The notes under the pieces: model-generated
The model's input: the letters and a program-made list of their open reading frames with translations, nothing else
The model's database searches: none
What the model was told of the DNA's origin: nothing
Part shown: one piece after another, positions 6,445-25,421 of the stretch
Position numbering within the stretch: the first letter of the stretch is position 1
How the letters are laid out: each line of letters starts with the position of its first letter
IMG/VR virus record: IMGVR_UViG_3300042294_004185
Location: 1 to 52,732 of that record
Origin: a virus
Length of the DNA: 52,732 nucleotides
Reading direction: 5' to 3' (one strand)
Made by a program: the position numbers and the translations under genes

Positions 6445-6599
6445 AGGATAGTTGTTACGCCAAATATTTTTAAAAACTCTTTTAATGGTAATTGTTTACG
6501 TTCAGCAAATATTTTAGCTGCTTGTAATCTGGAAGTTGTAATTACCCGACCAATTGTTTCTTGATCTTTATCTCTTTTGCTATAGAATTTAAATATCAT
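6441..6599 (-). CDS. Small unknown protein, 52 aa
   Basis: The frame gives MIFKFYSKRDKDQETIGRVI, then TTSRLQAAKIFAERKQLPLK and a short hydrophobic end. The part RLQAAKIFAERKQLPLKEFL reads as two helices. Both ends overlap the neighbours by 4 bases, which fits the packing of the region and supports the frame. No function is known to me. Confidence 0.55.
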   Translation of the reverse strand: MIFKFYSKRDKDQETIGRVITTSRLQAAKIFAERKQLPLKEFLKIFGVTTIL

Positions 6600-7525
6600 A
6601 TTCTAATGTATTTATTTTGTTGTTCTTCTAAGGAATTAATAGTAACTTTTAAATTTCCTATTTCAAATACTCCTAAATCATTTGTTTCTTTTACAATATC
6701 ATTTAGTTGTTGAATATAACTATAATCCTCTTGAGTAAATTTACTACCTTCTAATTCAACAACTATATCTTCACCACCGTTGAACCAATACTCTATACTT
6801 TCTTTATCACCAGAATTAATTTGACCGTTGATTATAACTTTTTTATTATACACTACATTATGTTCTGATTTTCTGAATCCCCATTTTTTAACAAACTTTT
6901 TATTTGATTCTATTTCAATAGGTAAATAATCACCAACACGAGATGTTTTACTAACAAAGTGATAAACATGAGCTGAACTTACTTTTTGTTCATATCCTGC
7001 TAATTTATGTCGTAGATGTAAGTCATCATCCTCACAAAATAATTTAAAAGTATATCCATCTATACCTAAATAATCTTCTTTCATACAACCAAAAAACATT
7101 TGAGCACCACCAAATGGGCCAACTGGTTCTAATAGATCATGTTCAATTTTAATATCTAAAAACTTTTGATAATTAAAAGAAATTAAATCTGTTCCACAGT
7201 CAACAACTTTTTTACCTGGGAATTCATTAGGGAATGTAGGTGGTTCTACTCTAGTATAAGCAGTGATTCTGCCTTTAACAATGTCTTTATCCATTTGTTC
7301 TACAAATCCAGGTTTAATAACCATATCATTATGTAATAAGATTATTTTTTCACCTTTTGCTTTAGCAACAGCATTATTATAATTAACACCCATAGTTACA
7401 GTATTATCTTCTGATACTATAATTTCTACTTGTGTTTCGTCAGGATAAATTTCTCGAATATTTTTTACTAAGTTATTCGTATACTCGGAATTTGTTTTGT
7501 TTGTTGGAATAATTAATGATATCAT
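6596..7525 (-). CDS. Family 2 glycosyltransferase (GT-A fold)
   Basis: This 309-aa protein opens with the GT2 beta strand MISLIIPTNK and has SED at 38-40 and HND at 65-67, the place of the DxD metal motif that holds the nucleotide-sugar. CEDDD at 164-168 fits the catalytic-base region. It would transfer a sugar from a nucleotide donor in the cytoplasm. The last 90 residues form an extra domain with no motif I know. It overlaps the 52-aa gene downstream and the next glycosyltransferase-like gene upstream by 4 bases each, and closes the 13-kb glycan block. Acceptor unknown: host surface glycan or virion protein. Confidence 0.8.
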   Translation of the reverse strand: MISLIIPTNKTNSEYTNNLVKNIREIYPDETQVEIIVSEDNTVTMGVNYNNAVAKAKGEKIILLHNDMVIKPGFVEQMDKDIVKGRITAYTRVEPPTFPNEFPGKKVVDCGTDLISFNYQKFLDIKIEHDLLEPVGPFGGAQMFFGCMKEDYLGIDGYTFKLFCEDDDLHLRHKLAGYEQKVSSAHVYHFVSKTSRVGDYLPIEIESNKKFVKKWGFRKSEHNVVYNKKVIINGQINSGDKESIEYWFNGGEDIVVELEGSKFTQEDYSYIQQLNDIVKETNDLGVFEIGNLKVTINSLEEQQNKYIRI

Positions 7526-8475
7526 TGTACAAGTTCTCCGTTAATATTGTTTGGTAATATATTTTTTTCTTTTAGTTGACTAATACCTTTTTTAATATAT
7601 TCAGGTAATTTAGCTTCAAATTCTTTTCTTTGATTTGGAACATCATTTATTTTTAATCTATCTCTATAATATTTAGTAAAACCATCAGCTCCATCTTTTA
7701 ATAATGGGCCTGATGGATACATCCATATTGTTTCTCCTTGTAAAAGATATTGTTGAAAATCTATTTTATTAAGTTTACAAAAATTAGAAAGCATCATAGA
7801 ATAATGATCCCAAGGACCATATCCCTCCCAATCATCTTGTACAGGACATAAATCTTCATAAAATGCTTTATTATATAAATCCATCCACCCAGCAAATTTA
7901 CTATTAGACAAAGGTAATAATCCTATTTCTTCATTTGAATTTTTATTATCATATCTAATATCAAAAATATCTACAGTTAAATAATCACTATAAGGAATAT
8001 TCATATATTTAGGATTTGTTATTCTATCCCAATCACTATCTCCTACTTTTGAAATTTGGGGGGTAATTACAAAATATTTACTTGTAACTAATTTAGCTGA
8101 TTCTATTAGATATGTTAAAACATATTCACTAAAATAAGTATCGGGGCAAATTGTTATATAATAATCTATATCTTTATCTATGGCTTCTCTTTGTTGGTTT
8201 AAATGACCATATAATTTATCCCCTTCATATATTTTACTATTTACTTTGTAATCACTTAATAATAAAAGTAAAGTATTAAATTTATCAATAAAATAATCTT
8301 TAGGTAATTTACTTTCTTCCCAATTATATAAATAACTTGTAAGATTTAATTCAATATCTAAAGTTATATTTACGTCCGCTGGTAAGTGATATTTGGATTT
8401 TTTTAATTGAGTGAACATTAATAAAGTATAATCAATGTCCCAGGGCATTATATGACTTATTATTTTAATATTCAT
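7522..8475 (-). CDS. Putative glycosyltransferase
   Basis: This 317-aa protein is recognised only weakly. The stretch IDYYITICPDTYFSEYVLTYLIESA resembles the region after the first sugar-nucleotide site of GT-A enzymes, with the Asp of PDTYF as a possible metal ligand. A later NSKFAGWMDLYNKAF and GPWDHYSMMLSNF resemble acceptor loops of this fold. Its place inside the glycan operon, with overlaps of 4 and 11 bases to its neighbours, supports the call. The base composition is very AT-rich. It may instead be a structural or regulatory protein of the pathway. Confidence 0.5.
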   Translation of the reverse strand: MNIKIISHIMPWDIDYTLLMFTQLKKSKYHLPADVNITLDIELNLTSYLYNWEESKLPKDYFIDKFNTLLLLLSDYKVNSKIYEGDKLYGHLNQQREAIDKDIDYYITICPDTYFSEYVLTYLIESAKLVTSKYFVITPQISKVGDSDWDRITNPKYMNIPYSDYLTVDIFDIRYDNKNSNEEIGLLPLSNSKFAGWMDLYNKAFYEDLCPVQDDWEGYGPWDHYSMMLSNFCKLNKIDFQQYLLQGETIWMYPSGPLLKDGADGFTKYYRDRLKINDVPNQRKEFEAKLPEYIKKGISQLKEKNILPNNINGELVQ

Positions 8476-9241
8476 TTTTCAATTCATTATAAACATTTTT
8501 TATACCTTGTTCTAAACCAATAAAATTCAATCCTAAATTTATAAATTCTCCATTAAAAGGTGGAGCCATATTCCATTCTTTTATATTAATATTTACTTTA
8601 TGGTCATCTAAATTATTAATAATTTTAGCAACATCATACAAAGTAGTAGAATAATTATAACTACAATTTATTTCTTTAGGTAAATTATTTGTTTTTATAC
8701 AATAATCCATTAATGTAATTAAATCTTCCATATAGAAAAAATCCATATATTTATTTTGAAAAATTTCTATATCTTTTTTAGTAATATAATTACGAATATT
8801 AGTTTTAACAAACTTAGATTCTAATTCATTTTCATTAAATACGGCAAATATTCTTATATTATAAAAATTATCCTTATTTTGTATTGATTCATTTATTACT
8901 TTTTTACTTAATCCATAAAATGTATCTTGTTTTTCAGCCCCTGAGCCGAAATAGAAAAGTCTATTAAAGTGGTCTTTACATTCTAATAAATTATAATACA
9001 TTTTTAAATTATTATCTAAAGTAGTAGAAGTTTCAGGTTCTAATCGAAGTCCTCCTTCTACAGCACAATGTATAATAACATCAAAGTGTTTATCTTTTAA
9101 ATATTCTTTAACATTTTGTAGATTTGTTACATCTAATTCTTTACGAGAAGCACATGTGATATTATAATTAGTTTTTAAAGCGTTATATAATGATTTGCCT
9201 ATATAACCATTAGCTCCAGTAATTAAAATTCTTGTATCCAT
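8465..9241 (-). CDS. NAD-dependent sugar epimerase/reductase (extended SDR)
   Basis: This 258-aa protein has the Rossmann motif ITGANGYIGKSL (GxxGxxG) at the N-terminus and a YGLSK catalytic pair (Tyr-x3-Lys) near residue 125, preceded by the FYFGSGA strand. This is the pattern of extended SDRs such as GDP-fucose synthase, ColC and 4-ketoreductases. It probably reduces or epimerises a 4-keto nucleotide sugar with NAD(P)H. With the His-type DegT enzyme of this block it would be the natural last reducing step for a deoxy sugar. At 258 aa it is shorter than typical epimerases (about 310). It overlaps the TPP-enzyme gene by 19 bases. Confidence 0.75.
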   Translation of the reverse strand: MDTRILITGANGYIGKSLYNALKTNYNITCASRKELDVTNLQNVKEYLKDKHFDVIIHCAVEGGLRLEPETSTTLDNNLKMYYNLLECKDHFNRLFYFGSGAEKQDTFYGLSKKVINESIQNKDNFYNIRIFAVFNENELESKFVKTNIRNYITKKDIEIFQNKYMDFFYMEDLITLMDYCIKTNNLPKEINCSYNYSTTLYDVAKIINNLDDHKVNINIKEWNMAPPFNGEFINLGLNFIGLEQGIKNVYNELKNEY

Positions 9242-10962
9242 TGTATATTATTTAATCCTCCAGGTATAAAATTTTTATTTTTATCTAAAACAGGTATTAC
9301 TCTAGGTTCATGAGATTCATTTTCATCTGTAAAAATTTCTAATACAGATGGTTTGTTATTTTTCAGAAATTTTTCTAGTACAGAATCTATTTCATCATGA
9401 TTTTTTATACTAAAATAAGGTAAATCATATGCTTTAACTAATTTCTTAAAATTTGGAAAAGTAACCCCACTACTTTCTTCAGAAGCTACGTATTTACCTT
9501 TAAATAAAAACTTTTGAGTTAATTTAATAGATAAATAACCGTTATTATTTAAAATAATTAATTTAATAGGTAAATTATTATGTTTCATGGTTTGTAATTC
9601 ATGAATATTTAAATGTAAACTACCATCACCTTCTAAACAAATTACTCTAGTATTATTACTACTTGCTCCTATTGCTGCTGGAAGTCCATACCCCATAGGG
9701 GCACAACCTGTATTTGTAATTAGTCTTTGGTTTCCTTTTAATTTTAAAACCTGCATAGTAACCACATTTGCTGAGCCGTCACTAGTAATAATGTGATCTT
9801 TTTCTGTTAAATGATTATTCAGTTTTTCAATAAAATGATAATTACTAACAGTATTAATTTTATTTCTATGTTTATCTAATACAGTAATATTATTTAGAAA
9901 TTTATTTTGAACATATGTTTGCCAATCTGTTGATGTTAAATTTAAAGATTGTTGATTTAATTTATTTAATAAAATTTTAGCATCCGTAGTTACTTTATAA
10001 TCAGGAAATAAAGATGGTTTATTTAATTCATTTGAATCTATATCTGTGTATATTTTATAAGCATTTTGTGCAAAGGATTTAAAATTATAACCTGTTTGTC
10101 TAATATATAATCTTGAACCTATTGTTAAAAGAAAATCACATTCATCTAATAAATTATTAGCACATATTTGAGCATGAGTCCCAAATCGTCCAGCATAATT
10201 TATGTAATCTTCGTTTATTATATCATTTCCATTTACGGCTGTAATAACAGGAACATTAGTTTTATTTAAAAATTCTTTTAGTTCATCAATACCACCACTT
10301 AATCTAACTCCATTACCTACAATGATTAAGGGCTTTTTTGAGTTATTAAATTTTTCTACTATATGGTTAATTTCTTCATTTGTTGGTTTTGGTGTATTAT
10401 CTTCAGGAATAAATGATTCTAGTTCTTCTGGGTTGATGTCAAAAGATTGAGTATTCAAAGGTAAATCTAACCATACAGGGCCTGGTCTACCACTTGTAGC
10501 TTCAAAACATGCTTTTTCTAAATGATATCTAATAGTTTTAGGATCATTTACTTGAACAGCATATTTAGTCATATTTTTTACTGAATCTATTATATTAAAT
10601 TCTTGGTCTCCTAATTGTCTTAATGGAAGATTTGTATAATTAGTAGTCATTTCTTTGTTTACTTGACCACTAATAACAATCATAGGAATAGAATCTAACC
10701 AACTACATAATACACCAGTTAATGTGTTTGTTCCTCCGGGACCACTAGTTACAATACAACAACCCATTTTATCATGCATTCTAGCATAACCTTCAGCAGC
10801 CATAGCAGAAGCTTGTTCGTGATGATTAGCTATGTACTTTATATTTTCAACAGTTCCTAAAGAATCCATTAAAAAAATACATCCACCTCCAGATAAAGTA
10901 AAAAAAGTATCTACTTTATATGAATCTCTTAAAAACTGTATTACATAGTCTGATAATCTCAT
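9223..10962 (-). CDS. Acetolactate-synthase-like TPP-dependent enzyme
   Basis: This 579-aa protein has the full three-domain layout of the acetolactate synthase family. The activating Glu is E49 in NHHEQA. The central domain has the Rossmann-like VGNGVRLSGG stretch, and the TPP/Mg motif GDGS at 445-448 runs to NNN at about 472-474. These enzymes split pyruvate and transfer a two-carbon unit. In sugar clusters a homologue (YerE) adds that unit to a 4-keto sugar to make a branched sugar such as yersiniose. Other relatives hydrolyse cyclitol diones (IolD type). Placement among sugar genes, and no amino-acid pathway nearby, favours a sugar role. Which reaction it does cannot be read from sequence by eye. 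Confidence 0.85.
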   Translation of the reverse strand: MRLSDYVIQFLRDSYKVDTFFTLSGGGCIFLMDSLGTVENIKYIANHHEQASAMAAEGYARMHDKMGCCIVTSGPGGTNTLTGVLCSWLDSIPMIVISGQVNKEMTTNYTNLPLRQLGDQEFNIIDSVKNMTKYAVQVNDPKTIRYHLEKACFEATSGRPGPVWLDLPLNTQSFDINPEELESFIPEDNTPKPTNEEINHIVEKFNNSKKPLIIVGNGVRLSGGIDELKEFLNKTNVPVITAVNGNDIINEDYINYAGRFGTHAQICANNLLDECDFLLTIGSRLYIRQTGYNFKSFAQNAYKIYTDIDSNELNKPSLFPDYKVTTDAKILLNKLNQQSLNLTSTDWQTYVQNKFLNNITVLDKHRNKINTVSNYHFIEKLNNHLTEKDHIITSDGSANVVTMQVLKLKGNQRLITNTGCAPMGYGLPAAIGASSNNTRVICLEGDGSLHLNIHELQTMKHNNLPIKLIILNNNGYLSIKLTQKFLFKGKYVASEESSGVTFPNFKKLVKAYDLPYFSIKNHDEIDSVLEKFLKNNKPSVLEIFTDENESHEPRVIPVLDKNKNFIPGGLNNIQWIQEF

Positions 10963-11965
10963 TTTCTTCTAATCTAATTGTATTGAATATAATATTTTTA
11001 TCTGGGAAAACCAAGTTTATTTGGCCAGTGTTTTTCTTATCTGATTTAATTGTTTTTATAATGTTTTCAATATTAAACCATTTTTTATCTATATTAATAT
11101 GTTCAATTAATGATAAACCTATTTTATTAATAATGGTATAGTCTAAATTTGTTTCTATATTTAATTCTTTAAGTATATCATTTATAATTAAAATACCTAA
11201 TATCACTGCTGAACCATGAGGGAGTTTATAATTGGATGTAATTTCTAATGCATGACCAAAGGTATGTCCATAATTTAATAATTTTCTTAAACCTTGATCA
11301 AATTCATCTATTTCAATTATTGATATCTTATACTCTAAACATTCTCTAATTAATTGATTTAAATTTTCTTTAGAAAAAATATTTTTATTTAATTTATTTT
11401 GTAATATTTTAAATTTAAATACTTCTCCTAAACCACTTTTAAAATCTTCTTCACTTAAGGTTTGTAAAAATTTATCACAAATTAATATTTCTGTTGGAGG
11501 ATAAAATGTACCTAAGATATTTTTTATAGAACTAAAATTAATAGATGTTTTTCCCCCAACACAACTATCACATTGAGATAATAAGGTAGTAGGCACAAAT
11601 TTGTATTTAATACCTCTACTATAGATACTACAACAAAAACCAGCTACATCTTGTAAAGTACCTCCCCCAATAATAACAACTTCTGTATTAGATTTAAATT
11701 GGTTTTGAGTAAAGGTTTTTAATAATATTTCAATATGGTCAAAAGATTTTGTAGTTTCATTACATTCATAAAATATTTTATTAGATAAAGAATTAAAATC
11801 GTAATATTTTTCTAAATTTTTATCTATAATAAACCAACTTTGTTTATTTAAATTATTTAATAAATCTTCTATAGTATTATGAAAAGTTACTTTATAATTA
11901 TTTAAATTAGATTTAACTTTTAGAGGTACAAGAGTACCCTCCGTCAATTGTAATGTTTTGTCCAT
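10916..11965 (-). CDS. Dehydroquinate-synthase-like sugar phosphate cyclase
   Basis: This 349-aa protein matches the AroB fold. IIGGGTLQDVAGF (98-110) binds NAD, PTTLLSQCDSCVGGKT (125-140) is the signature loop, GLGEVFKF carries the zinc ligand E181, and YGHTFGHALE with LPHG supplies the zinc His residues. The family cyclises sugar phosphates: dehydroquinate synthase itself, 2-deoxy-scyllo-inosose synthase and valiolone synthases. No other shikimate gene is present, so a role in making a carbocyclic or unusual sugar is more likely than aromatic synthesis. The start overlaps the SDR gene by 53 bases and its end overlaps the TPP gene by 47, both longer than usual here. No other in-frame ATG is close, so the start is uncertain. 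Confidence 0.8.
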   Translation of the reverse strand: MDKTLQLTEGTLVPLKVKSNLNNYKVTFHNTIEDLLNNLNKQSWFIIDKNLEKYYDFNSLSNKIFYECNETTKSFDHIEILLKTFTQNQFKSNTEVVIIGGGTLQDVAGFCCSIYSRGIKYKFVPTTLLSQCDSCVGGKTSINFSSIKNILGTFYPPTEILICDKFLQTLSEEDFKSGLGEVFKFKILQNKLNKNIFSKENLNQLIRECLEYKISIIEIDEFDQGLRKLLNYGHTFGHALEITSNYKLPHGSAVILGILIINDILKELNIETNLDYTIINKIGLSLIEHINIDKKWFNIENIIKTIKSDKKNTGQINLVFPDKNIIFNTIRLEENEIIRLCNTVFKRFI

Positions 11966-12575
11966 TTATGTAAGTATTTTCAATTGTTAAAAAATAAACT
12001 AGTTTAGATATTTCATCAATATTACCTAGTCTTTTTAATGGAATTTGGTTTTTTATATTTTCTAAATCTTCTTTAGTATTATTTTGAAGAGTTAAATCTG
12101 TTAAAATATAACCTGGAGAGATAGTGTTGCATAATATATTATGTTCTGAGAATTCACTTACTATGGTTTTAGTAAGACTATGAAGAGCATTTTTACTGGC
12201 ACTATAACTACCTCTAAGGTTTTTAGCATAATCAATCCATATACTTCCTATATTAACAATTCGTCCATATTTTTTATTCTTTAATAAAGGTAAAAAATGT
12301 TGACAAATAATAAAAGGAGATAAATAATTAATGTTTAAAGTCTTATTTAAATTTTCTATAGTTTCATTTTCTATACTGTTCAAATAATTTACTCCAGCAT
12401 TATTTATAATAACATCTACATCTTTTATTGTTGTTAAATAAGATTTAACATGTTCTAAATTTGATAAATCCATTTCTTTTTTTGAAGGTGAGAGTACAAC
12501 ATGACCCTGTTTTTCAAAAAAATCTTTTATACCTTTACCAATTCCTCTTGAACCTCCTGTTAATAATACAATCAT
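11913..12575 (-). CDS. Short-chain dehydrogenase/reductase
   Basis: This 220-aa classical SDR shows TGGSRGIGKGI (cofactor site), NNAGVNYL (the NNAG strand), a catalytic Ser in NIGSIW, and YSASKNALH (Tyr-x3-Lys), ending with INGQNITIDGG as in many oxidoreductases of this class. It would oxidise or reduce a hydroxyl/keto group of a sugar or small precursor with NAD(P)H. It lies between the aldolase and the cyclase gene, abutting the former and overlapping the latter. The AT-rich coding style matches its neighbours. The substrate is unknown. Confidence 0.85.
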   Translation of the reverse strand: MIVLLTGGSRGIGKGIKDFFEKQGHVVLSPSKKEMDLSNLEHVKSYLTTIKDVDVIINNAGVNYLNSIENETIENLNKTLNINYLSPFIICQHFLPLLKNKKYGRIVNIGSIWIDYAKNLRGSYSASKNALHSLTKTIVSEFSEHNILCNTISPGYILTDLTLQNNTKEDLENIKNQIPLKRLGNIDEISKLVYFLTIENTYINGQNITIDGGYSCTSKS

Positions 12576-13372
12576 TATATATCTGCAGACTGATTAATTC
12601 TGTCTTGGATCATTTGAATACGTTTATTCTCTTTATCAGCTTGAAATTGATATGTTTCTTTTTTATTAACTAACCATTCATATTCAAACATTTGTCCTTT
12701 AGCTAAAGCTTTACTTAAGTTTTTTAGTGCTTTAGAAGGATCATAAATAGCATATCTAGTTTCAAATTTATCTAAAAGACCCTCTTTATAAAGTTCTTTT
12801 AAAAAACTATAAGAATCAGTAGTAATAGCTCCTCCTAAATTAGCAGTTAATCCTATTTGTTTTGCTTTTGTAAAAATATCTTTTGTCATTTTTAACATTT
12901 CAGGAGAATTAACATATTTTCTATCCTTACCCATAGATGAAACAAAATCAACTCTTCCTACTGTAACAGCATATAAATCTTTACTTTCTTTTACATTTAA
13001 TATTTCATCAATATTTTTATATGATTGAATAGTTTCAATATTAACAATTAATTCTAAGGACTCAACTATATCAGGAGATAAATTAGTATGGACACAGTTA
13101 ATAAATTTAGTTAATCCAAATCCAGATTCAACCATAGGTGCTACTAAACCTTTAACTCCAATAACTGATGAATCTTGAATATCTCTTGATGCTTCTGGTC
13201 CTCCTATTTTTAGAGTTAGTTTTGTTTTTGCTTGGTTACAGATTTCTTTTAACCTAAGAACTTCATTAAAAGTAGCTCCTTCATCTTCGAAACTGGTTTT
13301 GATTCCTATTAAACCATGGTTTTCTACCATGTCTGTTAAAATAGAAACGCATTTAAATTCTCTTGTATTCAT
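12575..13372 (-). CDS. HpcH/HpaI-type aldolase (citrate lyase family)
   Basis: This 265-aa protein has the TIM-barrel pattern of HpcH/HpaI aldolases: KLTLKIGGPEASRD, GVKGLVAPMVESGF (Glu for the metal) and LELIVNIETIQSY. The family joins or splits pyruvate- or acetyl-derived units and aldehydes with a divalent metal. In this block it could make or use the carbon unit handled by the TPP enzyme, or a keto acid for an unusual sugar. Its start follows the methyltransferase gene by 6 bases and its stop touches the SDR start. A direct role in sugar formation is inference. Confidence 0.75.
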   Translation of the reverse strand: MNTREFKCVSILTDMVENHGLIGIKTSFEDEGATFNEVLRLKEICNQAKTKLTLKIGGPEASRDIQDSSVIGVKGLVAPMVESGFGLTKFINCVHTNLSPDIVESLELIVNIETIQSYKNIDEILNVKESKDLYAVTVGRVDFVSSMGKDRKYVNSPEMLKMTKDIFTKAKQIGLTANLGGAITTDSYSFLKELYKEGLLDKFETRYAIYDPSKALKNLSKALAKGQMFEYEWLVNKKETYQFQADKENKRIQMIQDRINQSADI

Positions 13373-13378
13373 ATTAAA

Positions 13379-14041
13379 TTATTTTTTATGTATAATAATA
13401 GTTTTATAAGCATTTTGAATATCCGGATGTACATCTATTTGAGATATATTATCTTCTAGATATTTTTTTTCTTGTTCTGTTAAAAATTCTGAATCTGCTA
13501 TTTTTTGTTCTTTTAGTTTTGTAATAAAATCAAAAGTTTCATCGTTTCTAATACAACAACAAGGTAAATCTCTTTCAGTTACATCTTCTAATATATAAAA
13601 ACCTTTTGATTTCACATATTTAAATAAATGTCCTAAAGAAATTATTTGATGATTATGTTGATGAGAACCATCTTCTAATATAAAATCAAAATCCTTAGAA
13701 CCAAATTCATAATACATGTTAGTTAAATCCTCTCTAGAACTTTGATCTCCCTTATAAAATTTTACTCTTTCTCCCAATTCTGTTTCTAGTTCTTTCATAT
13801 CTACTATATCAAAAGTATGTATAAAAGCTTTTGAAAAATAATCATGCCACATCCTAACAGAATGTCCTCCTGTAGTACCTTCCATGCATATTCCTACTTC
13901 TAATAATCTAATAGATTCATTTCTCCACCTTGATAAGTAACTATCATATATAGGAGTATATCCATGTTTACTACTTTTTGGATATTGTGTGCCTTTATCT
14001 GTATTATAATAATTAGCTAATTCATCTAAAGTTTTTTCCAT
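13379..14041 (-). CDS. Sugar O-methyltransferase-like protein (demethylmacrocin type)
   Basis: This 220-aa SAM-dependent methyltransferase has LANYYNTDKGTQ at the start, LLEVGICMEGT (SAM loop), HTFDIVDM, and FILEDGSHQHNHQI. That set is typical of the family of the macrolide sugar methyltransferases and related LPS enzymes, where the Asp and His of DGSH bind the metal next to the sugar hydroxyl. It probably methylates a hydroxyl of a deoxy sugar. It sits between the DegT-type gene and the aldolase gene with 3-6 base gaps, so it belongs to the same transcript. The length is usual for the family. Confidence 0.75.
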   Translation of the reverse strand: MEKTLDELANYYNTDKGTQYPKSSKHGYTPIYDSYLSRWRNESIRLLEVGICMEGTTGGHSVRMWHDYFSKAFIHTFDIVDMKELETELGERVKFYKGDQSSREDLTNMYYEFGSKDFDFILEDGSHQHNHQIISLGHLFKYVKSKGFYILEDVTERDLPCCCIRNDETFDFITKLKEQKIADSEFLTEQEKKYLEDNISQIDVHPDIQNAYKTIIIHKK

Positions 14042-14044
14042 ACT

Positions 14045-15187
14045 TTATTTACTAAAAAATTCTTTGATTTTATCACAAACGTAATCTACATCCTCAACAG
14101 TCATACCATGATGAGCACCTAACAAGAATCCATTTTTCATAATAGTATCTGAGTTTTTAAATTCTTGTAGGTACTCTCTATATACTGGATGACGAGTAAC
14201 ATTACCAGCGAATGTAACACGGGTCTGCACGTTGTTGTTTTCTAAAAAGTTTAGCAATTCATAACGTTTTTCAGTTTGTAAAGGAATAGCTAACCAGTTT
14301 GGTTGAATTGAATCATCAGGTAAAATTAAATCACCTACACCTTTAAGATTTTCAATATAACGTTCAATGTTTTCTCTTCTAATTTGTGAGAATTTTTCAA
14401 AACGGTGTAATTGAACTAATCCAAAAGCAGCATTCATTTCACAAGCTTTCATATGATATCCTAATACAGAATATAAAAACTTATGGTCATAAGGAATACC
14501 GTCTACAATGTGATTAAAACGATCATCCATAATTTCCGAATCATCACCCAAACGACCCCAGTCTCTGTATTGTAGACACTTAGTAACGTGTTTTTTATCA
14601 TTAAACATTACCATACCACCAACACCACCTGCTGTAATAACGTGTGAAGCATAAAAACTAGTTGTTGCTACATCGCTTTCAGGAGTTTCAGTAATTGTGT
14701 CAGCTGAATCTTCAATCAAAATAATATCTGTTCTGCCTAACAATTTAATTTCTTGCTTCAATTTAGCCCAATTTGGTTTATTACCAATCAAATTAGGTAA
14801 CATAATAGCTTTTACATCAGGAGTAATTGCTGCTACTACTTGGTCAATATCAGCTACATAGTCATTTAATCCTACATCTACAAATTTAGGTTTATAACCT
14901 AATTGAATAATAGGAGCTAATGTAGTTGAGAATGTACAAGCAGGAGTAATAATTTTACATCCTTTAGGTAGATCCAAAGAAGCAATAGCTAACAAACAAG
15001 CTGATGAACCTGAATTAACAAATACACCAAACTTTTTACCAAAACGTTTAGCAATTTTTTCTTCAAATTCAACTGATTTAGGACCTTGTCCACCTAACCA
15101 TCCTGAGCGTAGTGATTCTTCTACAGCTTTAATTTCTTCTTCGCCATAAGATTCAAACTTATAAGGGGCGTACCATATTTTTTTCAT
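14045..15187 (-). CDS. DegT-family PLP enzyme with His for the catalytic Lys (sugar 3-dehydratase-like)
   Basis: This 380-aa protein is a full DegT/DnrJ/EryC1 member: SGWLGGQGP near residue 28, VNSGSSACLLA (58-68), IIEDSAD with D160 facing the PLP ring, then TSFYASHVIT. In aminotransferases the sixth residue of the SF[HY]xx[K] motif is the Lys that binds PLP. Here it is H182. That swap is the mark of ColD and RfbH-type enzymes, which remove the 3-hydroxyl of a 4-keto-6-deoxy sugar instead of transaminating. A 3-deoxy sugar is the expected product. The coding style is less AT-rich than the genes to its left, as in the phage core. It overlaps the GT10 gene by 4 bases. Confidence 0.85.
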   Translation of the reverse strand: MKKIWYAPYKFESYGEEEIKAVEESLRSGWLGGQGPKSVEFEEKIAKRFGKKFGVFVNSGSSACLLAIASLDLPKGCKIITPACTFSTTLAPIIQLGYKPKFVDVGLNDYVADIDQVVAAITPDVKAIMLPNLIGNKPNWAKLKQEIKLLGRTDIILIEDSADTITETPESDVATTSFYASHVITAGGVGGMVMFNDKKHVTKCLQYRDWGRLGDDSEIMDDRFNHIVDGIPYDHKFLYSVLGYHMKACEMNAAFGLVQLHRFEKFSQIRRENIERYIENLKGVGDLILPDDSIQPNWLAIPLQTEKRYELLNFLENNNVQTRVTFAGNVTRHPVYREYLQEFKNSDTIMKNGFLLGAHHGMTVEDVDYVCDKIKEFFSK

Positions 15188-15996
15188 ATTAATTTATTGT
15201 GTTTAAAAATTTGTGTGATTGTGTTTACTATATTTTGCTCGTAATTTACATACTCTAAAGCCAATTTCCAATTTTTATTAATTATTTCTTTTCGATTTTC
15301 GTAATAACTTTCATTTAGTTGATTAGTTATATAAATTAAATCATCTATGTTATTAAATGTTATAATACCGTCTATATCAAAGTAATCTCCTATATTTGAA
15401 CAACCCCAATAAATTGGAATTGTCTTTAATAAAAAACAATCTAATATTTTTTCAGTAAAATAACCTCTATGAGATGTATTTTCAATTACTATTCCAAACT
15501 GAGAATCTCCAAATATAAATTTTTTACCTAAACGAGCATCTTCAATATTATTTCTATCTCCATATGTTTCATAAAACTTAAGAGGAATACTAAATTCATT
15601 TTGTCTTGCTAAAGCTTCATGTCTTAAAGAATGACCATATGTTTTTAATAATTTACCACATAAATGAGATAATTGAAACTTTTTATCATGTTCTTTATTG
15701 TATTGATCGGGTTGTAACCAAGTATGTCCAAAAGGTTGATAAACAGCATTATCACAATTATTTAGTACTTTATCACTTTGTGTTAAAATAATATTAAATA
15801 ATTCTTTATTTTGAATAGTCCAATCATGTAAACCAAAATATTCATTTGGTTCCTGAAATGATATAATGTTTATATCTGATAATTCATCTTGTGATTGGGG
15901 TGGAGTTTCTACAAATAAAGAAAAATCCAAATGAGATAAGTGTTGTAATTTATCTTTAAAAACTTGCTCATTAAAATGAGATACTTTTAATTTCAT
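15184..15996 (-). CDS. GT10-type fucosyltransferase-like glycosyltransferase
   Basis: This 270-aa protein has, at 167-198, the C-terminal donor motif of alpha-1,3-fucosyltransferases: FGIVIENTSHRGYFTEKI followed by LDCFLLKTIPIYWG. The family moves L-fucose or a similar deoxy sugar from a GDP donor. The N-terminal half is divergent. In this operon it could attach the deoxy sugar made by the neighbouring enzymes. No membrane segment is visible, so it acts in the cytoplasm. It overlaps both neighbours by 4 bases. Whether the donor is GDP-linked is inference. Confidence 0.8.
   Translation of the reverse strand: MKLKVSHFNEQVFKDKLQHLSHLDFSLFVETPPQSQDELSDINIISFQEPNEYFGLHDWTIQNKELFNIILTQSDKVLNNCDNAVYQPFGHTWLQPDQYNKEHDKKFQLSHLCGKLLKTYGHSLRHEALARQNEFSIPLKFYETYGDRNNIEDARLGKKFIFGDSQFGIVIENTSHRGYFTEKILDCFLLKTIPIYWGCSNIGDYFDIDGIITFNNIDDLIYITNQLNESYYENRKEIINKNWKLALEYVNYEQNIVNTITQIFKHNKLI

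Positions 15997-23482: not shown

Positions 23483-25421
<1,939 letters not shown>

Follow-up and report, generated by a model that had tools for sequence, protein, structure and literature searches.

A virus record of 52,732 nucleotides from IMG/VR (IMGVR_UViG_3300042294_004185; G000 in our comparisons), here called the window, 52.7 kb in all and possibly a fragment, carries a locus that we read, from its genes alone and with a probability of about 0.52, as the source of a nucleotide-activated deoxy sugar that carries a long, hydroxylated branch at C4. That the locus serves a branched deoxy sugar pathway in general is well supported, and the gene set probably builds an unusual long-branched sugar using a repurposed enzyme of the aromatic pathway. 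Similar sets of genes are found in numerous phages, and in bacteria they accompany the classical genes for branched sugars.

The DNA comes from an uncultured phage, an assignment made firm by the DNA polymerase, clamp loader, DnaB-like helicase, ribonucleotide reductase and GroEL that the window encodes. All pathway genes lie on the minus strand in the transcription order DegT, MT, ALD, SDR, CYC, TPP and EPI, with glycosyltransferase-like genes on the flanks. ALD is a predicted aldolase of the HpcH/HpaI fold (12575..13372; PF03328 41.7 bits, cut-off 25); SDR is a FabG-type short-chain reductase directly upstream of CYC (11913..12575; PF13561 123 bits); CYC is a TIGR04425-like sugar-phosphate cyclase of the AroB/3-dehydroquinate synthase (DHQS) family (10916..11965); TPP is a YerE/JanthE-like lyase dependent on thiamine diphosphate (9223..10962; three TPP domains, 104-112 bits each); and EPI is an extended short-chain dehydrogenase/reductase of RmlD/epimerase type (8465..9241; PF01370 73.9 bits). 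A first-pass annotation of positions 8465-15187 had proposed a yersiniose-like pathway with a two-carbon branch. It was right about the acetolactate-synthase-like TPP enzyme and the extended reductase, and it overlooked CYC, SDR and ALD.

The branched-sugar assignment rests first on the TPP enzyme. Its best solved structure is JanthE (8rph, 353 bits; the next, an acetolactate synthase, scores 268), and the family profile gives JanthE 529 bits against 368 for the next best. JanthE is a characterised YerE-like enzyme (PMC12188165, PMC12247030). YerE-like enzymes make branched tertiary-alcohol sugars. In a maximum-likelihood tree of 35 proteins, the YerE sequence itself not among them, ten viral TPP enzymes form one clade (support 100/99), and this lies within a larger clade of 27 rows (100/99) that also holds JanthE and 16 bacterial enzymes, while E. 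coli IlvB and IlvI, two Bacteroidota IlvB, GCL and three IolD fall outside. Judged by sequence, the enzyme is thus a member of the YerE/JanthE clade, apart from acetolactate synthases, GCL and IolD. The comparison with acetolactate synthases and cyclitol hydrolases that the first-pass annotation had proposed as a check therefore places the enzyme with neither, and its grouping with JanthE and with bacterial enzymes linked to RfbF, RfbG and RfbH bears out the branched-chain deoxy sugar pathway it had proposed. The catalytic Glu49 is retained, as is a canonical GDG cofactor motif, in contrast to the CDG of JanthE and YerE-like lyases. Cleavage of cyclitols in the manner of IolD was rejected as a function, the three IolD proteins lying outside the clade. 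A phosphonate trio of PepM, Ppd and a reductase was likewise discarded, CYC being AroB-like and the TPP enzyme having three domains of acetolactate synthase/YerE type.

The same data bear on an auxiliary role in amino-acid metabolism, in which an acetolactate synthase and a dehydroquinate synthase would boost the branched-chain and aromatic amino acids of the host. Annotation-level similarity to IlvB and AroB speaks for it; however, both proteins score well below the equivalog cut-offs (TPP 352 vs 538 bits, CYC 249 vs 305 bits), the tree places acetolactate synthases outside the viral TPP clade, and in phages as in cells the neighbours of these genes are glycosyltransferases and genes for sugar modification. 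We consider this role extremely improbable. In Chlorobium virus contigs, an ilvB-type acetolactate synthase has been tabulated in just this amino-acid role, together with rfbG, gmd and rfbE-type genes (PMC8226683), and these genes may be related to the cassette described here.

IMG/VR was scanned with ALD and TPP, and gene order was compared in a synteny table. A further 15 viral contigs have the arrangement ALD-SDR-CYC-TPP-EPI, on a single strand and with the gene order unchanged (L001, L005, L006, L007, L008, L009, L010, L012, L013, L014, L016, L019, L020, L021 and L022; in L009 one additional open reading frame (ORF) separates ALD and SDR), and for this reason it cannot be put down to chance. 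ALD and TPP are the best-conserved proteins (~63-92% identity to the window over the 15 contigs), while the identity of CYC and EPI falls to ~40-52%, except for CYC of the nearest relative, L001. EPI is the final gene in all 15 and is present in every complete viral cassette, and SDR adjoins CYC in viral and cellular relatives, L011 being the exception. Other genes are less constant: an MT homologue lies directly upstream of ALD in L006, L007, L009, L010, L015 and L017 and is not part of the core in all relatives, DegT is a neighbour of the cassette in no contigs but the window, L001 and L004, and an RmlB-like 4,6-dehydratase stands directly upstream of ALD in ten contigs (PF16363; 198 bits in L005). 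A strong GDP_Man_Dehyd match is frequent among cassette-bearing records. Against the phage record collection, CYC and TPP reached identities of ~35% at best, no named phage with the cassette was found, and the annotated matches were aroB or ilv-type genes in apparently bacterial DNA; in the plasmid collection, matches reached at most ~38% and were mainly aroB and ilv genes where annotated. The TPP gene of virus contig L017 (11268-12841) is split over several frames and is either a pseudogene or an assembly error.

Bacterial relatives supply the second line of evidence. Scanning the genome contig collection with the ALD alignment returned two loci only, of which one lies on a phage-like contig. 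The single good genome-contig match led to Arsenicibacter rosenii, and 395 genomes of its phylum were then searched. A strong TPP match was present in 8/8 genomes with a strong ALD match, compared with 9/387 of the others. Genes for a cytidine diphosphate (CDP)-3,6-dideoxyhexose stand beside the cellular cassettes in most loci where the contig is long enough. In L051, a glucose-1-phosphate cytidylyltransferase (RfbF, 458 bits, cut-off 300), a CDP-glucose 4,6-dehydratase (RfbG, 487 bits, cut-off 278) and RfbH (722 bits, cut-off 423) are followed by TPP-SDR-CYC-ALD and an epimerase-type short-chain dehydrogenase/reductase. A C4-branched deoxy sugar is strongly supported because this locus holds the acceptor supply of the yersiniose type. 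The window thus resembles the yersiniose A pathway (RfbF, RfbG, E1/RfbH, YerE, YerF) in its YerE-clade TPP enzyme, DegT-type protein and reductase, and its bacterial cassette relatives lie directly beside RfbF-RfbG-RfbH; it differs in having three additional conserved enzymes (ALD, CYC and SDR), in the lack of RfbF and RfbG from its record, and in a DegT protein without the Fe-S motif.

The AlphaFold model of ALD (predicted local distance difference test score 94.5) matches the HpaI class II pyruvate aldolases (Z 18.7-18.9 over 194-195 residues; Foldseek E 2e-9), and since SbnG and pyruvate kinases fit the model almost equally well, the fold alone is no proof of aldolase activity. With the HpaI/HpcH enzymes ALD shares the fold, a PF03328 score above the cut-off, and Glu113 and Asp142 at the metal-ligand positions, both invariant in 12 viral sequences; it differs from them in its low identity (~14-16%), in Lys55 and in a long C-terminal helix. 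In related loci, ALD is exchanged for other enzymes. A NeuB-family synthase takes its place in L058, L094, L096 and L097, and MhpE and MhpF do so in L095 (4-hydroxy-2-oxovalerate aldolase and acylating acetaldehyde dehydrogenase, both above curated cut-offs), so that this JanthE-like bacterial cluster differs from the window, where the TPP enzyme is paired with ALD-SDR-CYC. ALD, NeuB and MhpE are all makers of alpha-keto acids. The TPP enzyme of L095 is the one closest to JanthE. The gene order there (L095:4827-13870), RfbF-RfbG-SDR-TPP-acetaldehyde dehydrogenase-4-hydroxy-2-oxovalerate aldolase-SDR-RfbH, suggests that JanthE-like enzymes naturally use 4-hydroxy-2-oxovalerate as donor. Moreover, the YerE-like ErwE favours 4-hydroxy-2-oxoacids over pyruvate as donors (PMC12247030). 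Because the loci pair TPP with makers of longer acids, and given this preference of ErwE, the donor of the window enzyme is most likely the ALD product or a derivative of it rather than pyruvate.

A plain yersiniose-like pathway would instead use pyruvate to form a two-carbon branch; ALD, CYC and SDR would then serve to make another component of the same glycan, a quinate-like acid or an ulosonate. YerE itself uses pyruvate (PMC12247030), CYC resembles a normal dehydroquinate synthase by its residues, and L099 is an RfbF/G/H-TPP cluster in which no aldolase, NeuB or MhpE accompanies the TPP enzyme. However, L099 branches outside the clade of viral, ALD-, NeuB- and MhpE-linked enzymes, ALD and TPP are the most conserved proteins of the cassette and always occur together in the genomes with a strong ALD match, and there is no recurring gene for attaching a cyclic acid. 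We regard this scheme as distinctly unlikely. The two-carbon branch of the first-pass annotation is likewise not supported, ALD, CYC and SDR having no role in it and the related loci indicating a longer alpha-keto acid donor.

Among NCBIfam models, CYC scores best with TIGR04425, 'AroB-related putative sugar phosphate phospholyase (cyclizing)': 330 bits against a cut-off of 400. The AroB equivalog TIGR01357 gives 249 bits (cut-off 305). It forms a lineage separate from AroB sequences in the tree (support 87/85), from which L032, fetched as the AroB of G001, was left out because its longest ORF was in a wrong frame; for that reason it does not count in the residue comparison either. Under both cut-offs and located in glycan loci beside SDR, it nevertheless resembles AroB in its active site: 13/13 of the tested DHQS residues, in the window and in the viral sequences, are identical to E. 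coli AroB. The tested positions are, in what we take to be the Aspergillus nidulans numbering, R130, D146, K152, N162, E194, K197, K250, R264, N268, H271, H275, H287 and K356. Equivalents of K250, R264 and N268, which presumably bind the carboxylate of 3-deoxy-D-arabino-heptulosonate 7-phosphate (DAHP), are kept in CYC, while its EboD-like relative L033 has lost all three; this retention suggests that the substrate of CYC is an ulosonate before decarboxylation. The literature on TIGR04425 and on bradyrhizose offered nothing usable.

Further indication of what CYC does comes from its exchange with proteins bearing a HAD motif. Among 30 loci of ALD or NeuB type (L053 starts inside the cluster), CYC is found without a HAD motif in 22 and a HAD motif without CYC in seven, while one (L011) has both. 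Exactly one of the two is thus present in 29/30 loci (Fisher p 4e-6, a value that overstates independence because the loci are related). The HAD assignment comes from Pfam or NCBIfam in L030, L056, L057 and L097, and from the motif only in L004, L017 and L094. L051 and L056 illustrate the exchange: their TPP enzymes share 86% identity and their genes are ordered alike, but SDR-CYC in the former stands at the place of HAD in the latter. A relative of ALD in L031 forms a fusion with a HAD-like domain that shares 44% identity with that of L004. This fusion (L031:5963-7096) is found on a phage-like contig binned as Altibacter, where it adjoins an epimerase, a cytidylyltransferase-like protein and a cupin. 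Neither CYC nor HAD occurs in L095 (MhpE type) or L099 (pyruvate type), whose donors need no sugar phosphate. The simplest reading would be that a phosphorylated ulosonate from ALD or NeuB loses its phosphate either through hydrolysis by HAD or through the chemistry of CYC. The 210 kb virus record containing L011 (10001-18056) has both module branches within one locus, with genes for ALD, SDR, a small HAD-motif protein, a NeuB-family synthase, TPP, a diverged CYC, a 316-residue kinase-like protein, a methyltransferase-like protein and EPI.

These observations also bear on a cyclitol pathway, in which CYC would make an inosose- or valiolone-like ketone as acceptor for the TPP enzyme. CYC is indeed a member of the sugar-phosphate cyclase superfamily, and cyclic ketones can serve YerE-like enzymes as acceptors in vitro (PMC12247030). 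Nevertheless, the residues expected to differ in sedoheptulose-type cyclases are unchanged in CYC, L033 being the EboD-like control, the cellular clusters supply CDP-4-keto sugars as acceptors, and TPP and ALD are found without CYC in L004, L017, L030, L056 and L057. Such a pathway appears very improbable.

We propose the following route for the long-branched sugar. ALD would join pyruvate to the aldehyde of a sugar phosphate such as erythrose 4-phosphate, giving a phosphorylated 3-deoxy-2-ulosonate. CYC would apply dehydroquinate-synthase chemistry (oxidation, phosphate loss and reduction) with release of an open-chain 2,6-diketone, and SDR would reduce the ketone left by CYC, yielding a terminally deoxygenated alpha-keto acid. 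The TPP enzyme would decarboxylate this acid and add the acyl unit to the 4-ketone of a nucleoside diphosphate-linked 4-keto-6-deoxy (or 3,6-dideoxy) hexose, EPI would reduce the branch ketone in the role of YerF, and the neighbouring glycosyltransferases and methyltransferase would use the product. Open-chain release is proposed because ring closure at C2 would destroy the alpha-keto acid needed by the TPP enzyme. An intact C2 keto group would be needed in L059 too, since activation as a cytidine monophosphate (CMP)-ulosonate would require it: this locus combines SDR and CYC with a gene of the CMP-transferase (cytidylyltransferase) family, a SIS isomerase and a canonical HpcH aldolase, and has no TPP enzyme. 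The same set of SDR and CYC, SIS isomerase-like protein, canonical HpcH/HpaI aldolase and cytidylyltransferase-family protein, again with no TPP enzyme, is seen in L060 (2851-11802) as in L059 (8252-14556) and could represent a separate CMP-ulosonate pathway. The sequences directly show the genes, their cassette, the place of TPP in the YerE clade, the RfbF/G/H neighbourhood in bacteria and the replacement of SDR and CYC by a HAD-type gene; all substrates, the step order, the absence of ring closure and the phage's acceptor sugar are inferred.

Ring closure would follow if the acyl chain that the TPP enzyme attached to the 4-keto sugar were still phosphorylated; CYC would next cyclise it with phosphate loss and SDR would reduce the ring ketone, the product being a sugar with a C-linked polyhydroxycyclohexane branch. 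The sugar-phosphate cyclase family normally cyclises, CYC has the complete set of dehydroquinate-synthase residues, and the exchange of CYC with a phosphatase is compatible with that order too. Yet the residues to which general knowledge assigns carboxylate binding are kept, even though the substrate would have no carboxylate, EPI would be left with no obvious substrate, and no natural sugar carrying such a branch is known to us. We therefore hold ring closure to be unlikely.

On the open-chain route, erythrose 4-phosphate would lead to 3,7-dideoxyhept-2-ulosonate as donor, and its addition to a 3,6-dideoxy-4-ketohexose followed by reduction would give a 3,6-dideoxy-4-C-(1,3,4,5-tetrahydroxyhexyl)hexose. 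Caryophyllose, a C12 sugar with a tertiary C4 (PMC7821131), is a 3,6-dideoxy-4-C-[1,3,4,5-tetrahydroxyhexyl]-hexose (PMC5706390). The predicted product thus has a carbon and deoxy pattern identical to that of caryophyllose from the lipooligosaccharide (LOS) of Mycobacterium marinum (MMAR_2332), in a comparison made on paper and by constitution alone; the match is not a blind prediction, caryophyllose having already been in view when the scheme was drawn up. The literature examined on the M. marinum LOS cluster names no AroB-like or aldolase gene, the cluster sequence itself lying outside the comparison. As a bolder and rather doubtful proposal, a DHQS-family enzyme turned deoxygenating could, with an aldolase and SDR, make 3,7-dideoxy-ulosonate donors for YerE-like lyases; this could be the route, so far missing, by which caryophyllose-type C12 sugars obtain their C6 branch, and whole copies of it would circulate in aquatic phages and remodel glycans.

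Several observations weigh against a long-branched sugar made in this way. Lys55 of ALD aligns with Arg70 of HpaI, which we take to be a pyruvate-binding residue, and the canonical HpcH proteins of L059 and L060 have Arg at this position. L011 holds CYC together with a HAD motif, and ALD together with NeuB, and in L004 and L094 the HAD assignment depends on the motif, Pfam giving no match. On the acceptor side, the window record has no match to the 4,6-dehydratase model PF16363, and a sugar nucleotidyltransferase (PF00483) is missing from the window and from all viral records compared (0/14). Finally, DegT does not have the CxC...C Fe-S motif found in 5/5 RfbH proteins compared; its active-site His is kept. 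PF16363 is also without a match in G396, the 154.8 kb record of the nearest relative L001. Since PF16363 and PF00483 matches are absent, the window must obtain its acceptor sugar from the host, or else from phage sequence that the record does not contain. The view of the first-pass annotation that the 4,6-dehydratase comes from elsewhere hence fits the window and its nearest relative, but most other cassette-bearing phages encode one.

If the proposed route is correct, it would mean a new reaction type for the AroB family and a branch length that can be read from gene content, and phages would carry a rare-sugar pathway whose genes easily pass as amino-acid auxiliary genes. The literature examined contains no description of such a pathway in phages, nor does it say how long hydroxylated donors of YerE-like enzymes are supplied. 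The modular pattern (ALD or NeuB or MhpE; HAD or CYC with SDR) makes donor supply testable with purified enzymes.

Other genes of the locus lie outside the five-gene cassette. DegT (14045..15187, minus strand; PF01041 235 bits) matches E1 (3bcx, 184 bits) and ColD (144 bits), and scores 251 bits against the RfbH model NF011936 (cut-off 423). Its DegT family and the His at the usual Lys position agree with the first-pass annotation, whereas the AscC/RfbH type given there is weak and the Fe-S cysteines are absent; from its sequence it may be a 3-dehydratase for the acceptor sugar, perhaps acting like ColD, outside the core. MT (13379..14041, minus strand), a methyltransferase-like protein using S-adenosylmethionine with a putative tailoring role, is present as annotated, through a match to phrog_21658 'methyltransferase' (63 bits) though with no Pfam match. 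The GT10-like glycosyltransferase assigned to the region does exist in the same glycan region (15184..15996, minus strand), but it lies almost wholly beyond position 15187 and scores below the Pfam cut-off (PF00852 22.3 bits vs 23.9). Downstream, a GT2-family glycosyltransferase is encoded at 6596..7525 on the minus strand (PF00535 27.9 bits). Directly downstream of EPI, positions 7522-8475 encode a 317-residue protein with no Pfam, NCBIfam or PHROG match that is kept in L001 (44%) and L004 (72%).

A scan for promoters and terminators gave nothing in excess of shuffles. The ORFs of the cassette, taken from the first ATG, overlap by 53 bases (11913-11965) and 47 bases (10916-10962); since overlaps are at most 16 bases in most relatives, the true starts may be further downstream. 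The GroEL chaperonin of the phage is encoded at 23483-25093 (phrog_5725, 530 bits).

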